Assembly: GCF_001412595.2 (NCBI RefSeq)
Contig: NZ_CP012640.2
Coordinates: 1,798,001 to 1,862,000 of the forward strand
Reading direction: 5' to 3'
Length of the DNA: 64,000 bases
Origin: Massilia sp. WG5
GTDB lineage: Bacteria > Pseudomonadota > Gammaproteobacteria > Burkholderiales > Burkholderiaceae_D
Below are positions 9,251 through 57,951 of the stretch, piece after piece. The number at the start of each line of letters is the position of its first letter. Position 1 is the first letter of the stretch. Made by a program: the position numbers and the translations under genes. Below the pieces are notes generated by a model. That model saw only the letters and a program-made list of their open reading frames with translations, did not search any database and was not told the origin of the DNA.

Positions 9251-9263
9251 TTGTCCACGACAA
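9251..9263. promoter_or_regulatory. candidate distal operator, TTGTC-N3-GACAA
   Basis: Perfect 5-bp inverted repeat TTGTCCACGACAA. A second copy lies at 9314-9326 with centres 63 bp apart, about six DNA turns, placing both on the same helix face. Proposed binding site for the MerR/B12 regulator encoded three genes downstream; inference only. Confidence 0.5.
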
Positions 9264-9279
9264 CAACCGCTATATTCAC

Positions 9280-9307
9280 TTGCAATTACCGCAAAGCAAT
9301 ATACAAT
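9280..9307 (+). promoter_or_regulatory. candidate sigma70 promoter of the pyp operon
   Basis: A -35-like TTGCAA (9280-9285) and a -10-like TACAAT (9302-9307) are separated by 16 bp. The predicted start near 9314 coincides with the proximal palindrome, and leaves a leader of about 48 nt before the pyp ATG. Confidence 0.5.
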
Positions 9308-9313
9308 TGTGTT

Positions 9314-9326
9314 TTGTCCTAGACAA
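9314..9326. promoter_or_regulatory. candidate proximal operator, TTGTC-N3-GACAA
   Basis: TTGTCCTAGACAA, a second perfect copy of the arms found at 9251-9263, lying exactly where transcription should begin. A further half-site GACAA follows at 9331-9335. A repressor bound here would block the pyp promoter; the arrangement of two sites with a helical-turn spacing suits a tetrameric CarH-type repressor. Confidence 0.55.
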
Positions 9327-9361
9327 ATAAGACAAACAACCGAGACCAACAAGGAGCACCC

Positions 9362-9751
9362 ATGCTGTCAATCCCGAACGTGATCGCCTTCGGCAAGGAC
9401 GATATCGACAATTCCCTGTCCAAGCTGCCCGGCAACAAGATCGATGAACTGGCCTTCGGCGCCATCCAGCTCGACGCCCAGGGCAGGATCCTGCGCTACA
9501 ACCAGGCCGAGGCGGAGATCACCGGCCGCAAGGCCGACGCCGTGATCGGCACCAACTTCTTCCGCGACGTCGCGCCCTGCACCAACACGGCCCGCTTCAA
9601 GGGCGTGTTCGACGCCGGCGTGCGCGCCAACAACCTGAACACCATGTTCGAGTACGTGTTCGACTACAAGATGACGCCGACCAAGGTGAAGATCCACATG
9701 AAGAAGGCCATCAGCGACGGCACCTTCTGGATCTTCGTGAAGCGCCTGTAA
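9362..9751 (+). CDS. pyp: photoactive yellow protein (PYP)
   Basis: Blue-light photoreceptor of 129 residues with a PAS fold that covalently carries p-coumaric acid. Comparison with the Halorhodospira halophila protein from memory (offset +4) finds every chromophore residue: Cys73 in DVAPCT (attachment, C69), Tyr46 (Y42) and Glu50 (E46) holding the phenolate, Thr54 (T50), Arg56 (R52) and Met104 (M100). Long identical stretches include [17 protein letters not shown] and MTPTKVK. An AAGGAG site precedes the ATG. It is followed after 3 nt by a ligase gene expected to activate the chromophore. PYP is sporadic in bacteria, so transfer is plausible, although codon use matches its surroundings. Confidence 0.96.
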
Positions 9752-9754
9752 GCC

Positions 9755-10978
9755 ATGCACGCCTCCCCATGGTGGACCGACCGCGGCGCGCTGCTGCGCT
9801 TCGTCGCCGACCTGGCGGCGGGCGAGCTGGCGGCGCTGCGCCATGACCAGTTCCTGCTGCCCGCCGGCTGGACCGGCTCGCTGTCGCTGCAGCACGACCT
9901 CGGCGTCGACTCGCTCGAGCTGCTGCACCTGGCGGGCAGCCTGGCCGAAGCCCTGCAGATGCACCGCAGCGGGATCGAGGACTACCTGCTGGCGCGCCGC
10001 ACCCTGGACGGCTGGCTCGACATCGCCACCGCCGCCCTGCAGCACTGGGACGCCGAACTGACTTTCCGCACCTCGGGCAGCAGCGGCGAGCCAAAACGCT
10101 GCACGCACGCCCTCGCCGCCCTGGAACAGGAAGCGGCCAGCCTGGCCGCGCTGTTCCCGCGGCGCCGGCGCCTGCTGCTGGCGGTGCCCAGCCATCACAT
10201 CTACGGTTTCCTGTTCGGCGTGCTGCTGCCGCGCCATCTCGGCCTTGAAGCGGACCAGGTCGTCAGCGTGCGCGCGCGCCTGCCCTCGCAGCTGGCCAGG
10301 CATGCGCTGCCCGGCGACCTGGTGGTCGGCCATCCGCAGTTCTGGCAGGCGGCGACGGGCAGCGGGGCGCGCTTCCCCGAGGACGTGACGGGCGTCAGCT
10401 CGACCGCGCCCTGCCCCGATACGGTCGCGGAACAGGCCGAGGCGGCGGGGCTGGCTTCGCTGGTCCAGATCTACGGCGCGTCCGAAACCGGCGGCCTCGG
10501 ATGGCGCGCCTCGCACCGCGACGCCTATCGCCTGCTGCCCTACCTGGAACGCGTGCCCGGCCTCGACGACGAGGTGCTGCGCCGCGGCCCCGATGGCGTC
10601 GTGCGCGCCCTGGCGCCGCAGGACGGCCTGGCGTGGTGCGGCGCCGACCGCTTCACGGTGGGCGCGCGCCGCGACGCCGCGGTCCAGGTGGGCGGCGTCA
10701 ACGTGTTCCCGGAACGGGTGCGCAATGTGCTGCTGGCGCACCCGCTGGTGGAAGATGCGGCCGTGCGCCTGATGCGCCCCGACGAGGGCCAGCGCCTGAA
10801 GGCCTTCGTGGTGCCGCGTCCCGGCGCCGGCGCCGCCTTCGCGCAGGAGCTGCGCGCCTGGGCCGACGCCAGGCTGGCGCCGCTCGAGCGTCCGAAGGCG
10901 ATCACCCTCGGCCCGCAGCTTCCGCGCGGCGCGTTGGGCAAGCCTGCCGACTGGCGGCTAGAATACAGTCACTCATGA
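9755..10978 (+). CDS. AMP-forming ligase for PYP chromophore activation, with ACP-like N-terminus
   Basis: ANL-superfamily enzyme (407 residues) likely to adenylate p-coumarate and transfer it to a thiol. Motifs: P-loop TSGSSGEPK (106-114), PSHHIYGF, IYGASETGG, VGGVNVFPERV and the catalytic Lys in GALGKPADW. The N-terminal subdomain of normal 4-coumarate-CoA ligases (about 540 residues) is missing; instead residues about 12-90 look like an acyl carrier domain, with the phosphopantetheine-type motif LGVDSLELL (Ser53). The coumaroyl group might thus be loaded on an attached carrier rather than free CoA. Alternatively this is the standard layout of the PYP-linked ligase family and the carrier is vestigial. 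Coupled to pyp and overlaps the next gene by ATGA. Confidence 0.85.
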   Translation: MHASPWWTDRGALLRFVADLAAGELAALRHDQFLLPAGWTGSLSLQHDLGVDSLELLHLAGSLAEALQMHRSGIEDYLLARRTLDGWLDIATAALQHWDAELTFRTSGSSGEPKRCTHALAALEQEAASLAALFPRRRRLLLAVPSHHIYGFLFGVLLPRHLGLEADQVVSVRARLPSQLARHALPGDLVVGHPQFWQAATGSGARFPEDVTGVSSTAPCPDTVAEQAEAAGLASLVQIYGASETGGLGWRASHRDAYRLLPYLERVPGLDDEVLRRGPDGVVRALAPQDGLAWCGADRFTVGARRDAAVQVGGVNVFPERVRNVLLAHPLVEDAAVRLMRPDEGQRLKAFVVPRPGAGAAFAQELRAWADARLAPLERPKAITLGPQLPRGALGKPADWRLEYSHS

Positions 10979-11877
10979 CGATTACACAAACTACCCTCAG
11001 TATCGCCGCCGTCGAGCGCGAGACCCGGCTGTCCAAGGACGTGCTGCGGGTCTGGGAACGGCGCTACGGCTTCCCGCAGCCGGAGCGCGACGCGAACGGC
11101 GAGCGCAGCTACCCGGCCGAGCAGGTCGAGCGCCTGCGCCTGATGAAGCGCCTGATGGACCAGGGCCACCGCCCCGGCGCCCTTGCCGCGCTGGCGCCCG
11201 GCGAGCTGGCCGCGCTGGCCGCGCCGGAGCTGCGCGCGGCGGCGGACGAGCCGCAGGATGGCGCGATCGCGCTGCTGCTGGACCTGATCCGCGAGCGCGA
11301 CCCGATTGCTGCCCGCCACGCGCTGCGCCAGGCGCTGGCGCGCCAGGGCCTGGAGCGCTTCGTCGAGCAGACCGTGGCGCCGCTCACGGCGGCCGTCGGC
11401 CTGTGCTGGGAAGACGGCAGCTTCGACGTCTTCGACGAACATTTCTATACCGAATCGGTAGAGAGCCTGCTGCGCCAGGCGATCGCCGACCTGCCCGGCG
11501 CCCGCCAGGGTCCGCGCATCCTCCTCACCACCGTGCCTGGCGAAGGGCATGGCCTCGGCCTGCTGATGGCCGAAGCCATGCTCTCGCTGGAAGGCGCGAC
11601 CTGCATTTCGCTGGGCACCGAGACCCCGCTGCTCGACATCGCGCGCGCAGCGGCGGCCTACGGTACCGGGGTCGTGGCGCTGTCGTTTTCGGCGGCCTAT
11701 CCGCGCCGCCAGCTGGCGCCGGCGCTGGCGCAGCTGCGCCAGCTGCTGCCGCCGGCGGTGGAATTATGGGCCGGCGGCGCCGGCGTGGCGCGCCTCGATG
11801 CCGTCGACGGCGTGCAGCTGCTGCCGACGCTGGACAGCGGCCGCCAGGCGCTGGCCGCGCTCGGCCTCAAGATGTAA
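10975..11877 (+). CDS. MerR-family B12-binding regulator, CarH/LitR-like photoreceptor
   Basis: A 300-residue regulator: MerR winged helix at about 8-70 (VLRVWERRYGFPQPERD), a helical bundle and a C-terminal cobalamin-binding Rossmann domain. The light-sensor hallmark Wx9EH is present (Trp145, Glu155, His156), and EGHGLG (190-195) supplies His192 as probable lower cobalt ligand. Known CarH proteins bind adenosylcobalamin, repress as tetramers in the dark and release DNA in light. The residue after Trp145 is Glu, whereas Thermus CarH has His132 there, which forms the bis-His light adduct; photochemistry may differ. TAGAAT at 10959-10964 suggests an additional internal promoter. Likely regulates its own operon through the palindromes upstream of pyp. 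Confidence 0.9.
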   Translation: MTITQTTLSIAAVERETRLSKDVLRVWERRYGFPQPERDANGERSYPAEQVERLRLMKRLMDQGHRPGALAALAPGELAALAAPELRAAADEPQDGAIALLLDLIRERDPIAARHALRQALARQGLERFVEQTVAPLTAAVGLCWEDGSFDVFDEHFYTESVESLLRQAIADLPGARQGPRILLTTVPGEGHGLGLLMAEAMLSLEGATCISLGTETPLLDIARAAAAYGTGVVALSFSAAYPRRQLAPALAQLRQLLPPAVELWAGGAGVARLDAVDGVQLLPTLDSGRQALAALGLKM

Positions 11878-11883
11878 GTCCGC

Positions 11884-14187
11884 TCAGGCGGCGTCCTTCG
11901 ACTGCCAGCCCTGCAGCTGCGCGATGAAGTCGTCCAGCGGCGCCGGGCGCGAGAACAGGAAGCCCTGCATCGCCGGCTTGCGGTTGGCCGTCAGGAACTC
12001 GGCCTGCTGCACGGTCTCGACGCCTTCCGCCACCACGCGCAATCCGAGATGGTCGGCCATCGCCAGGATCGACTGCACGATGGCGGTGCCGTTGGCGTCG
12101 CCCGGGGTGTCGCGGATGAAGCTCTTGTCGATCTTGAGTTCGTACAGCGGCATCTTTTTCAGGTAGGCCAGGTTCGAGTAGCCGGTGCCGAAATCGTCGA
12201 TCGAGAAGCGGATCCCCATCTGCGCCAGCTCGTGCATGCGCGCGATGGTTTCATTGAGATCGTTGACCAGCAGCCCTTCGGTGACTTCGAAGATCAGCTG
12301 GCTGGCCGGCGCGCCGGTCTCGACCAGGATGGTGCAGACCTGGTCGACGAAGTCGGGCTGGCGGAACTGCAGCGGGCTGACGTTGATCGACAGCGGCACC
12401 GCCAGGCCGGCGCGGTCGAGGCGCTGCCAGTACAGGCAGGCCTGGCGCAGCACCCAGTGGCCGAGCGGGACGATCAGGGCGCTCGATTCGGCCGCCGGGA
12501 TGAACACGTCGGGCGCGACCATGTTGCCGTCCGCGCGCCGCCAGCGCATCAGGAGCTCGGCGCCGACCGGCACGCGCCGGTGGTCGATCTGCATCTGCAG
12601 GTGCATCGACAGTTCGCCGTTCTCCATCGCGTTCGCCAGGTCGCGTTCCAGGGTCAGCTTGCGCTCGGCCTCGGCCAGCATGCCGGTCTCGAACAGGGCG
12701 ACGCCGTTGCGGCCGGCGACCTTGGCGCGGTACATCGCGGTATCGGCTTCGCGCAGCAGGTCGTGGCCGGTCTTGCCGTCGCGCAGCGGCAGCGCGATGC
12801 CGATGCTGGCCGAGGCATTGTAGAGCTGGCCGTCGATCTCGACGTCCTGGGCCAGGACGCTGCGGATCTTTTCGGCCACGGTCTGCGCCACGAGGGTGGC
12901 GCGCTCGACTTCCCGGCCCAGGTTCTCGAGCAGGACCACGAATTCGTCGCCGCCCAAGCGCGCCACGGTATCGCCCTGGCGCAGCACGCCGGCGACGCGC
13001 GCGGCGGCATGCTTGAGCATCGTGTCGCCGATCGCATGGCCGCGCGCATCGTTGATGGTCTTGAAATTGTCGAGGTCGATGAACAGCACCGCGCCCAGGC
13101 CGCCGCCCGTGTAGGCGCGCGCGACCATGGCGTCGAGGCGCTCGATCAGCAGGCGCCGGTTGGGCAGCCCGGTCAGCACGTCGTAGAAGGCCAGGCGGTG
13201 GATGGCGTCGGCGTCGTTGCGGCGCTCGGTGATGTCGCGCCCGACCACCACCCAGTGCGTGTTGCGGCCGCCTTCGCCGGCAAAGGGCACCATCTCCATC
13301 TCGACCCAGTATTTTTCGCCGCTCTTGGCGTAGTTCACCAGCTCGGCCGTCACTGGCTCGCCGCGCTGCATGGCGCTGAGGATGCGCGCGACCTCGGCCT
13401 GGTCGGTATCGGGGCCGTACAGCAGGCGCATGCTGCGCCCGACGATGTCTTCGCGCGAATAGCCGGTGCGGCGCACGAAGGCGTCGTTGGCGAAGATGAC
13501 AGGCTGTTCGGCGCCCTCGACATCGACCACCCGGGCGATCAGCACCATGTCGTTGAGGCGCGCCACCGCGGCCGAGGTCAGGCGCAGCTCGGCATTCAGC
13601 TCATGCAGACGGGCATGGCCCTCTTCGAGCGAATCGGCGGTCCGGCCCAGCTCTTCCATCGATGAGTTCAGGCGCTGCAGCAGGCCGCCGCAGGTCAGGG
13701 TGATCAGGGCGCCGACGAACAGGTAGTTCAGGGTGACGATCAGGCAGGGCAAAAAGGCATGCTCTTCCATGCCCGCCACGTACAGCCTGGCATAGCCGGC
13801 GATGCCGAGCGTGAAGATGGTCGCGCCGCTGAACAGCAGCGCGCCGATCGCCGGCCGCATGCCCAGCAGCACCACGCTCAGCACGGGCAACGCGACCAGG
13901 AAGATCTGGCTCACCGGCCCGACGGTCAGCATCAGGCCGATGCCGATCATGTACAGGATCGCGAGGAAATTCACGACCCGGAAGGTGTAGTCGACACGCG
14001 GAAGACGCCAGAGCGCGATCACCCACGCCAGCGCCAGGCTGTCCATTGCGGCGACCGGCCAGAGGCCCTCGCTGACCGACAGGCCGATGCTGGGCACCGC
14101 CGCGAGCGTGCCGAGCATGACCACATACGACAGCAGGGTTGCGAAAACCCTGGAGCGCCAGTGTGCGATGTCGTAATAGGTTCCCAT
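11884..14187 (-). CDS. membrane-bound PAS-GGDEF-EAL cyclic-di-GMP enzyme
   Basis: Bifunctional c-di-GMP turnover protein, about 767 residues. Order: five or six N-terminal transmembrane helices (to about 175), a PAS domain (about 210-325), GGDEF (intact RLGGDEF) and EAL. The EAL domain retains ExLxR (ELLMR), the DDFGTGYS loop, KIDKSF and VAEGVET, so both activities are possible. The PAS resembles LOV domains (GYSREDIVGR, GPDTD, NYAKSG, RDITERR) but the photoactive NCRF motif reads SMRL, so there is no flavin-adduct Cys. ATG 14187 is given; GTG 14208 is an alternative, neither with a good ribosome-binding site. It converges tail to tail on the PYP operon, 6 nt away. Confidence 0.9.
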   Translation of the reverse strand: MGTYYDIAHWRSRVFATLLSYVVMLGTLAAVPSIGLSVSEGLWPVAAMDSLALAWVIALWRLPRVDYTFRVVNFLAILYMIGIGLMLTVGPVSQIFLVALPVLSVVLLGMRPAIGALLFSGATIFTLGIAGYARLYVAGMEEHAFLPCLIVTLNYLFVGALITLTCGGLLQRLNSSMEELGRTADSLEEGHARLHELNAELRLTSAAVARLNDMVLIARVVDVEGAEQPVIFANDAFVRRTGYSREDIVGRSMRLLYGPDTDQAEVARILSAMQRGEPVTAELVNYAKSGEKYWVEMEMVPFAGEGGRNTHWVVVGRDITERRNDADAIHRLAFYDVLTGLPNRRLLIERLDAMVARAYTGGGLGAVLFIDLDNFKTINDARGHAIGDTMLKHAAARVAGVLRQGDTVARLGGDEFVVLLENLGREVERATLVAQTVAEKIRSVLAQDVEIDGQLYNASASIGIALPLRDGKTGHDLLREADTAMYRAKVAGRNGVALFETGMLAEAERKLTLERDLANAMENGELSMHLQMQIDHRRVPVGAELLMRWRRADGNMVAPDVFIPAAESSALIVPLGHWVLRQACLYWQRLDRAGLAVPLSINVSPLQFRQPDFVDQVCTILVETGAPASQLIFEVTEGLLVNDLNETIARMHELAQMGIRFSIDDFGTGYSNLAYLKKMPLYELKIDKSFIRDTPGDANGTAIVQSILAMADHLGLRVVAEGVETVQQAEFLTANRKPAMQGFLFSRPAPLDDFIAQLQGWQSKDAA

Positions 14188-14346
14188 GGAGCGGCTCGTC
14201 AATCTCACTCCGCATGCGACTTCTACGGAGGATCATGGATTGTTGCAAAGCAACATTCTAGTTTAGGGCGCGGAAGCTGTCAGCAACTCCGTGCCCGGTG
14301 TTGTACCTGCGGGACGAAACGATAGCATCAAGAAATTGAACGCCGG

Positions 14347-55901: not shown

Positions 55902-55978
<77 letters not shown>

Positions 55979-56037: not shown

Positions 56038-57951
56038 CTATTTCCAGTCTCCCCGCAGCGCCAGCACCTGCTCGTACAAGCCTTCCGGCGTCACCTCCTG
56101 CGGCGGCACCGGCCGGCCCACCACCAGCGCCAGGCGCGAGCGCCAGCCGCGCGAGAAGGAGCGCTCGAACACGTTCGACGGGTCGCGCGAGAACACGCTG
56201 CCCCACAGGCCGCGCAGGGCCATCGGGATCACCGGCACCTTGCTGCGCTCGGTGATCTTGGCGATGCCGCCGCGGAACTCGTTCATGTCGCCGGTGCGGG
56301 TCAGCCTGCCTTCCGGGAAGATGCAGACCAGGTCGCCGTCGTGCAGGGCGTGGGCGATGTCGACGAAGGCCTTTTCCATCAGCCACGGGTCTTCCGCCGC
56401 CGGCGCGATCGGGATCGCCTTGGCGGTGCGGAAGATGAAGCCCAGCAGCGGCGTCCTGAAGATGCGGTGGTCCATCACGAAGCGGATCGGGCGCGGGCTG
56501 GCGGCCATGATCACGATCGCGTCGACGTAGGACACATGGTTGCAGACCAGGACCGCCGCGCCCTCTTCCGGAATGCGGTCGGTACCCATGGTCGAGACGC
56601 GGTGGATGGTATGGATCAGCAGCCAGGCCAGGAAGCGCATCAGGAATTCCGGCACCAGCGAGAAGATGTAGATGGCGACCAGCGCGTTCAGCAGCGCCGT
56701 GGTCAGGAACATCTCGGGAATCGTGAAGCCCTGCCCGATCAGGAACACGGCCACACCGGCCGCCGCCACCATGAACAGCGCATTCAGGATGTTCATGCCG
56801 GCGATGGTGCGCGATACGTGGGCCGGGTCGCAGCGAGTCTGGATCAGGGCGAACAGCGGCACGATGAAGAAGCCGCCGAACACGCCCAGCAGCAGCAGGT
56901 CGGCCAGGATGCGCGCGGTGCCCGCCTGCCGCAGCAGGCCGATGAAGTCGACCGGCGCGGTATTCGTGTAGCCCTGGCTGGCGAAGTACAGGTCGATGCC
57001 GAACAGCGACAGGCCGATCGCGCCGAAGGGCACCAGGCCGATCTCGACCTTCCGGCCCGACAGCTTTTCGCACAGCAGCGAACCGGCGCCGATGCCGAGC
57101 GAGAAAATCGTCAGCAGCAGCACGAACACGCTGTGGTCGCCGTGCAGGTAATCCTTGGCGTACAGCGGAAACTGCGACAGCACCAGCGCGCCGTAGAACC
57201 AGAACCAGGAATTGCCGAGCATGGACAGGAACACCGTGCGGTTCTTGCGCGAGAACGCCAGGTTGCGCAGCGATTCGGCGACCGGGTTGCGGCTGATGAC
57301 GAGACCGGGCTCGGGCGCCGGCGAGTGCGGGATGCGCCAGCTCGTGACCAGGCCCAGCACCGCAACCAGCAGCGTCCCGCCGGCCACCAGGTGGACGCCC
57401 GCGGCGCCATGGCCGGCCAGCACCGCGCCCACCACCTCGCCCAGCAGGATGCCGACGAAAGTGCCCATCTCGATCACGCCATTGCCGCCGACCAGTTCGT
57501 CCGGACGCAGGTGCTGCGGGAGGTAGGCGTACTTCACCGGGCCGAACAGGGTCGAGTGCACGCCCATGCCGGCCACCGCAGCGATCAGCAGCCACAGCGT
57601 GTGCGTCATCCAGCCCAGCGCCGCCACGCCCATGATGCCGATCTCGAGCAGCTTGACCCAGCGCGCCAGCCTGCCCTTCTCGACCTTGTCGGCGATCTGG
57701 CCGGCGGTCGCCGAGAACACGACATAGGGCAGGATGAACAGGCCGGGGATCAGGTTGTTGAGGAGCGCCGGCGGCAGCGTGGTCCAGGACAGCGCGTCGT
57801 AGGTGATCACCACCATCAGCGCGGTCTTGAACAGGTTGTCGTTGAAGGCGCCGAGGAACTGGGTCCAGAAGAAGGGGCCGAAGCGGCGCTGCGCCAGCAG
57901 GGCGAACTGGCTGCTATGGCTGGCATGGCTTGTGAGATTGGTATCGCTCAT
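56038..57951 (-). CDS. MFS (LplT-like) transporter fused to PlsC-type acyltransferase
   Basis: A 637-residue fusion. The first about 415 residues are a 12-helix MFS domain with FGPFFWTQFLGAFNDNLFKTAL, as in lysophospholipid transporter LplT; the C-terminal about 200 residues are a 1-acylglycerol-phosphate acyltransferase with VLVCNHVSYVDAI (HX4D) and FPEGRLTRTGD. Compared with LplT-Aas fusions it lacks the AMP-ligase part. It likely imports and re-acylates lysophospholipids at the inner membrane. ATG 57951 is preferred; GATAAC 9 nt upstream hints at a leaderless mRNA, and ATG 57960 is an alternative. Confidence 0.9.
   Translation of the reverse strand: MSDTNLTSHASHSSQFALLAQRRFGPFFWTQFLGAFNDNLFKTALMVVITYDALSWTTLPPALLNNLIPGLFILPYVVFSATAGQIADKVEKGRLARWVKLLEIGIMGVAALGWMTHTLWLLIAAVAGMGVHSTLFGPVKYAYLPQHLRPDELVGGNGVIEMGTFVGILLGEVVGAVLAGHGAAGVHLVAGGTLLVAVLGLVTSWRIPHSPAPEPGLVISRNPVAESLRNLAFSRKNRTVFLSMLGNSWFWFYGALVLSQFPLYAKDYLHGDHSVFVLLLTIFSLGIGAGSLLCEKLSGRKVEIGLVPFGAIGLSLFGIDLYFASQGYTNTAPVDFIGLLRQAGTARILADLLLLGVFGGFFIVPLFALIQTRCDPAHVSRTIAGMNILNALFMVAAAGVAVFLIGQGFTIPEMFLTTALLNALVAIYIFSLVPEFLMRFLAWLLIHTIHRVSTMGTDRIPEEGAAVLVCNHVSYVDAIVIMAASPRPIRFVMDHRIFRTPLLGFIFRTAKAIPIAPAAEDPWLMEKAFVDIAHALHDGDLVCIFPEGRLTRTGDMNEFRGGIAKITERSKVPVIPMALRGLWGSVFSRDPSNVFERSFSRGWRSRLALVVGRPVPPQEVTPEGLYEQVLALRGDWK

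Follow-up and report, generated by a model that had tools for sequence, protein, structure and literature searches.

Photoactive yellow protein (PYP), its ligase and a MerR/B12 regulator probably form a single light-gated photoreceptor operon in Massilia sp. WG5, in which an autoregulated, B12-dependent light repressor of the LitR/CarH type gates PYP synthesis. On this reading, drawn from sequence comparison, the timing of blue-light sensor synthesis appears to be set by a B12 switch. The host genome gives no match to PF00124 (Photo_RC), the single marker used for photosynthetic reaction-centre genes; that one marker supports a first-pass annotation of this DNA, which had called the host non-phototrophic in appearance. 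The operon lies in the window, the whole stretch of 64,000 nucleotides analysed here (G000:C1:1798001-1862000), part of the 6.2 Mb genome G000. As the same annotation had described, the genes for PYP (pyp, 9362-9751; 129 aa), an AMP-forming, PYP-type p-coumarate ligase (9755-10978; 407 aa) and a regulator probably of the class I LitR type (10975-11877; 300 aa) are consecutive on the plus strand, with a 3-nt gap after pyp and an ATGA overlap between ligase and regulator. An Rfam scan of the window matched only a tRNA (55905-55978) and, about 1.2 kb from it, Bcj11 (Burkholderia RNA 11; 57145-57266, minus strand; 62.2 bits).

The mechanism that we favor can be outlined as follows. In the dark, the regulator with bound adenosylcobalamin would sit on two TTGTC-N3-GACAA palindromes, one of them at the inferred transcription start, and repress pyp, the ligase gene and its own gene. 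Light would break the Co-C bond and the repressor would leave the DNA, allowing apo-PYP, ligase and new repressor to be made. The ligase would then adenylate p-coumarate, probably imported, and the p-coumaroyl group would pass to Cys73, most likely via the phosphopantetheine arm of an N-terminal carrier domain of the ligase, to give holo-PYP.

The product of pyp passes the TIGR02373 equivalog profile (180.8 bits; cut-off 143.05) and matches Halorhodospira-type PYP in the PDB with an E value of 1.3e-50, its closest matches among named records being from Massilia. The earlier statement that all chromophore residues are present holds: at an offset of +4, 13 positions of the Halorhodospira halophila protein (Ile31, Tyr42, Glu46, Thr50, Arg52, Phe62, Val66, Ala67, Pro68, Cys69, Phe92, Phe96 and Met100) are identical in the window PYP, whose Cys73, Tyr46 and Glu50 correspond to Cys69, Tyr42 and Glu46. 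Six PYPs with Thr50 absorb at 445 +/- 2.7 nm according to the available text of PMC12826048, and since the window PYP has Thr at this position its absorbance is predicted to lie near 445 nm. The genome also encodes a second, divergent PYP near C1:5942036 (L097:6028-6420, minus strand), with 73.9 bits to TIGR02373 and equivalents of Tyr42, Glu46 and Cys69; a second carrier-type ligase gene (L097:6615-7859, plus strand) is oriented divergently from it. Matches of this second type (64-86 bits) occur in 53/62 genomes of the genus, and at 21 of the 22 loci fetched a ligase lies no more than 1.5 kb away; these matches resemble clade C as set out in the text available of PMC9664959. Four PYP-like matches (107-110 bits) are packed inside 3.5 kb in a genome from another family of the order (G185:C1:133875-137373).

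Full PYPs, above the TIGR02373 cut-off, are found in 8 of the 62 genus genomes, and among 399 genomes drawn evenly from the order two have one, both from this genus. A survey of pyp neighbourhoods, the check suggested in the first-pass annotation, places the regulator at the pyp locus in all eight PYP-bearing genus genomes, 1.3-3.6 kb from pyp, and at 6 of the 65 PYP loci of one scan, all six in Massilia. These pyp-linked regulators are 62-100% identical to that of the window, the best match in other genus genomes (62 searched) being 58% identical, and dN/dS values of 0.26-0.33 (six pairs from four loci) indicate purifying selection. The operon occupies two chromosomal sites: it adjoins gluQ in four genomes, three of which also have a c-di-GMP gene there, and lies between genes resembling dapD and pilT in the remaining four. 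It has therefore moved or been acquired as a unit, and comparison supports regarding the B12/MerR gene as one of its stable members. In a tree built on the genus set, a single-clade result was obtained (19 rows, 98/98). This result holds only for the genus set, because a second tree, from which L157-L160 were left out and to which 15 of 119 further homologues were added, intersperses pyp-linked rows with Massilia-like rows lacking context.

The regulator contains PF13411 and PF02607 above cut-off and PF02310 just below it (30.8 bits against 32.1), all three also appearing in its precomputed domain annotation, and it matches the structure of Thermus CarH with an E value of 1.4e-33. The W-x9-EH light-sensor motif reported earlier can be read in its sequence, as can GExHxxG; in the alignment, GxxW, W-x9-EH, GExHxxG and GxxxP are present in 8/8 pyp-linked regulators. 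These match the signature of light-responsive cobalamin domains (GxxW, EH, GxxH and GxxxP) given in the available text of PMC11796333. A class II LitR assignment (PmlR2 type, with no working C-terminal B12 domain) was considered and set aside, the B12 motifs being present. The genome also encodes a corrinoid adenosyltransferase. We infer that the protein is an adenosylcobalamin-dependent light repressor of the LitR/CarH type. The earlier label "CarH", however, goes too far: the score against the CarH equivalog NF052513 is 134.5 bits for a cut-off of 400, and the conserved Trp is followed by Glu instead of His. At the position of Thermus CarH His132, all eight pyp-linked regulators have Glu, Gln or Ala. 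As the H132A mutant of TtCarH is described as unable to monomerise in the text available of PMC11796333, the mechanism of release may differ in these proteins. The substitution would also fit a regulator that acts as repressor of the operon but responds to B12 status, or no longer responds to light. We regard this as improbable, since the signature residues are all kept, position 132 is occupied by Arg, Gln or Tyr in photoreceptors reported in the same paper, and the palindrome discussed below precedes photolyase and BLUF genes in the genus.

The predicted operators are two palindromes upstream of pyp, to which no strand is assigned. The proximal copy, TTGTCCTAGACAA (9314-9326), lies at the inferred transcription start just after the -10-like element and is exact in 8/8 regulator-linked operons; the distal copy, TTGTCCACGACAA (9251-9263), is exact in five and one base off in three. 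A consensus scan places between them a sigma-70-like promoter, TTGCAA-N16-TACAAT (9280-9307, plus strand; 9/12), and among the eight upstream regions compared the -10 region is alike and the -35 region shows no clear conservation. The interval of the first-pass annotation starts exactly at the distal palindrome, which that annotation does not mention. An exact palindrome occurs within 500 bp of pyp in the window and in 7/7 fetched regulator-linked loci, and in 0/59 other PYP loci (one of which, L089, has only 3 bp upstream). In a family-wide test on 46 regulator genes (28 order-level and 18 genus-level loci), with the N3 spacing and a 400-bp reach fixed and the arm free (1024 arms), TTGTC preceded 17/46 genes, the next best arm 2/46 and any of 19 permutations of TTGTC at most one. 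None of the 17 genes, which include close kin (L235-L239), is linked to pyp; because pyp-linked operons carry the palindrome before pyp, the count is better given as 17 of 38 pyp-less regulator genes. The shared palindrome thereby supports, at the level of sequence, a tie between the regulator family and the pyp promoter.

Could the palindrome belong to another regulator, the MerR/B12 gene merely riding in the operon? Binding of the regulator to the palindrome is a prediction, and no copy of it lies within 400 bp of 21/38 pyp-less regulator genes. Yet the palindrome tracks the regulator with and without pyp, and PYP loci that lack the regulator lack the palindrome too, which makes this explanation very unlikely. 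Across the eight pyp genomes there is no genome-wide excess of the palindrome (35 sites, against 29 for a backward control). At the genome level, by a Fisher test that ignores kinship, the palindrome link is significant when pyp genomes are included (11/18 versus 3/44) and has a p value of 0.07 when they are left out (3/10 versus 3/44). In G041, with the locus on a single 5.3 Mb contig, the only two exact palindromes are both at the pyp promoter. Control of PYP synthesis by the B12 regulator remains our preferred reading. The first-pass annotation had proposed that light might control both the amount and the state of PYP; it is for the amount that comparison argues, as the best reading, because the regulator is stable in the operon, the palindrome is shared and the light-response signature is intact.

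Elsewhere in the genus the palindrome fronts BLUF genes (L200, L204), a photolyase gene (L203), a PNPOx-like gene (L202) and an amine-oxidase/cyclopropane-synthase cluster (L151). At L152 and L153, regulator homologues and divergently oriented chemoreceptor genes have a promoter in common that carries the palindrome, raising the possibility of light control of chemotaxis. The window genome has further copies at C1:1718535 and 1827654, and others at C1:443210 and 2392392 with no neighbour linkable to light. In three genomes (G000, G057 and G020; L195, L197 and L199 aligned) the palindrome is part of a conserved block some 150-170 bp upstream of a gene for a PAS hybrid histidine kinase (L195:2295-5609), which may be a second target or a partner of PYP.

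The signal chain of PYP is called an important gap in knowledge in the available text of PMC12826048. Three candidates for its output can be named here. One is this palindrome-linked kinase. Another is a MASE11-PAS-GGDEF-EAL protein encoded convergently with the operon, 6 bp past the regulator gene (11884-14208, minus strand), and present at 3/8 pyp loci. The third is the regulator itself, suggested by the precedent of a LOV-LitR pair: in Pseudomonas mendocina, a short LOV protein binds the neighbouring LitR PmlR2 and frees it from DNA (PMC9758184, in the text available). One could envision that PYP is the light input, binding the regulator as an anti-repressor when illuminated, B12 being a second input. 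PYP is inherited together with the regulator in 8/8 cases, and the operon has no output domain or other constant partner; PmlR2, however, is a class II protein whose B12 site does not work, while all eight pyp-linked regulators retain the B12 signature, and other regulators of the family exist without PYP. We consider such an arrangement unlikely; were it true, a single-domain PYP would have a direct transcriptional output.

Returning to the B12-gated operon, a ligase beside pyp is ordinary (64/65 PYP loci). That of the window carries PF00501 and PF13193 and scores 331.3 bits against TIGR02372 (4-coumarate-CoA ligase of PYP operons), below the cut-off of 334.7, for which reason we call it a PYP-type ligase and not an equivalog. 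Its residues 1-97 (9755-10045, plus strand), passed over in the first-pass annotation, adopt a four-helix carrier fold by model (pLDDT 93.4) and structural fold matches, with Asp-Ser-Leu at the start of helix 2; D52-S53 is invariant (48/48). Against PF00550 the domain scores 14.2 bits, and 7 of 10 ligase N-terminal fragments match that profile with a best score of 19.2; the gathering score of 20.8 being missed, we use the term "carrier-like". Given this predicted domain and its invariant Ser, the chromophore may travel on the ligase's built-in arm and not on CoA. It is tempting to go further and regard the "CoA ligase" of PYP operons as a self-loading carrier enzyme, which would place p-coumarate on the phosphopantetheine of its own N-terminal domain and hand it straight to the PYP cysteine, CoA not being the donor. 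Since the Ser is conserved in Massilia, Halomonas, Idiomarina, Spirochaetes and an Acidobacterium, the idea would apply to PYP ligases generally, with gating by the B12 light repressor added in this Massilia lineage; we rate the whole proposal at slightly under an even chance. The accepted last maturation step, as given in the available text of PMC12826048, is the reaction of p-coumaryl-CoA with apo-PYP, and it would need correcting if the carrier domain is used.

As to the source of the chromophore, a PF00221 search of the genome revealed no recognisable tyrosine ammonia-lyase (TAL), so p-coumarate is probably taken up. The sole match is a histidine ammonia-lyase (NF006871, 741 bits; cut-off 524), which by eye sits among genes resembling hut genes. 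Three relatives have a full-length TAL gene between ligase and regulator (pyp-ligase-TAL-regulator; L034, L035 and L098), an arrangement that the first-pass annotation did not report; the pyp locus has no lyase in L036, L037 or the window itself. The lyase frames of L032 and L033 (L032:8689-9957 and L033:9636-10988) are open (422 and 448 aa) but lack the YGVTTGYG loop and the ASG stretch, which we take to be the catalytic Tyr loop and the MIO site of the enzyme; they might be pseudoenzymes or genes on the way out. The lyase dN/dS is 0.49-0.67 in pairs with a loop-less copy and 0.24-0.36 among full-length pairs. G020 and G053 have a TAL-like lyase away from the pyp locus (66% identical), which in G020 lies, by eye, among genes resembling an aryl-polyene pigment cluster (L161:5530-7089, minus strand), and G014 has a TAL-like lyase fragment at a contig end.

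The novelty claimed for the combination survives in part. In the open-access literature we found no paper linking photoactive yellow protein with Massilia and, in main texts, no earlier description of the B12 regulator, the palindrome or the carrier-like domain. The main text of one PYP survey (PMC12826048) mentions no MerR, cobalamin, B12, CarH or Massilia, and that of another (PMC9664959) no MerR, cobalamin or Massilia. The latter does describe clade A PYPs as "often adjacent" to transcriptional regulators and lists these in its Data Set S3, where the pairing of PYP and regulator may stand unremarked.

Among known systems, the pyp-pCL-TAL operon of Halorhodospira halophila (PMC12826048, in the text available) likewise has a p-coumarate ligase gene directly after pyp, with TAL next as in the window's relatives; the window adds the MerR/B12 regulator and the palindromes, has no TAL and encodes a ligase that we read as carrier-fused. 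Acyl carrier proteins share the four-helix fold and the Ser at the start of helix 2, whereas the window domain is fused before a shortened adenylation domain, beside a photoreceptor gene, and falls short of the PF00550 cut-off. The Caballeronia sp. SBC2 pyp operons described in the available text of PMC12826048 also combine two kinds of photoreceptor, but their BLUF partner is a flavin receptor and not a DNA-binding B12 regulator. The PmSB-LOV/PmlR2 pair of Pseudomonas mendocina similarly sets a blue-light receptor gene beside a LitR-family gene; it differs, as far as the text available of PMC9758184 goes, in its LitR, which is of class II and has no working B12 site, in having LOV and not PYP, and in its operator, TGTACA-N12-TGTACA. 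With the class I LitR/CarH adenosylcobalamin light repressors of Thermus, Bacillus megaterium and Myxococcus, finally, the window regulator shares the MerR HTH, W-x9-EH, GExHxxG and, with PF02310 just under its cut-off, probably the two B12 domains; it stands apart from them in lying below the CarH equivalog cut-off, in lacking His132, in its palindrome and in its association with a PYP operon instead of carotenoid genes.
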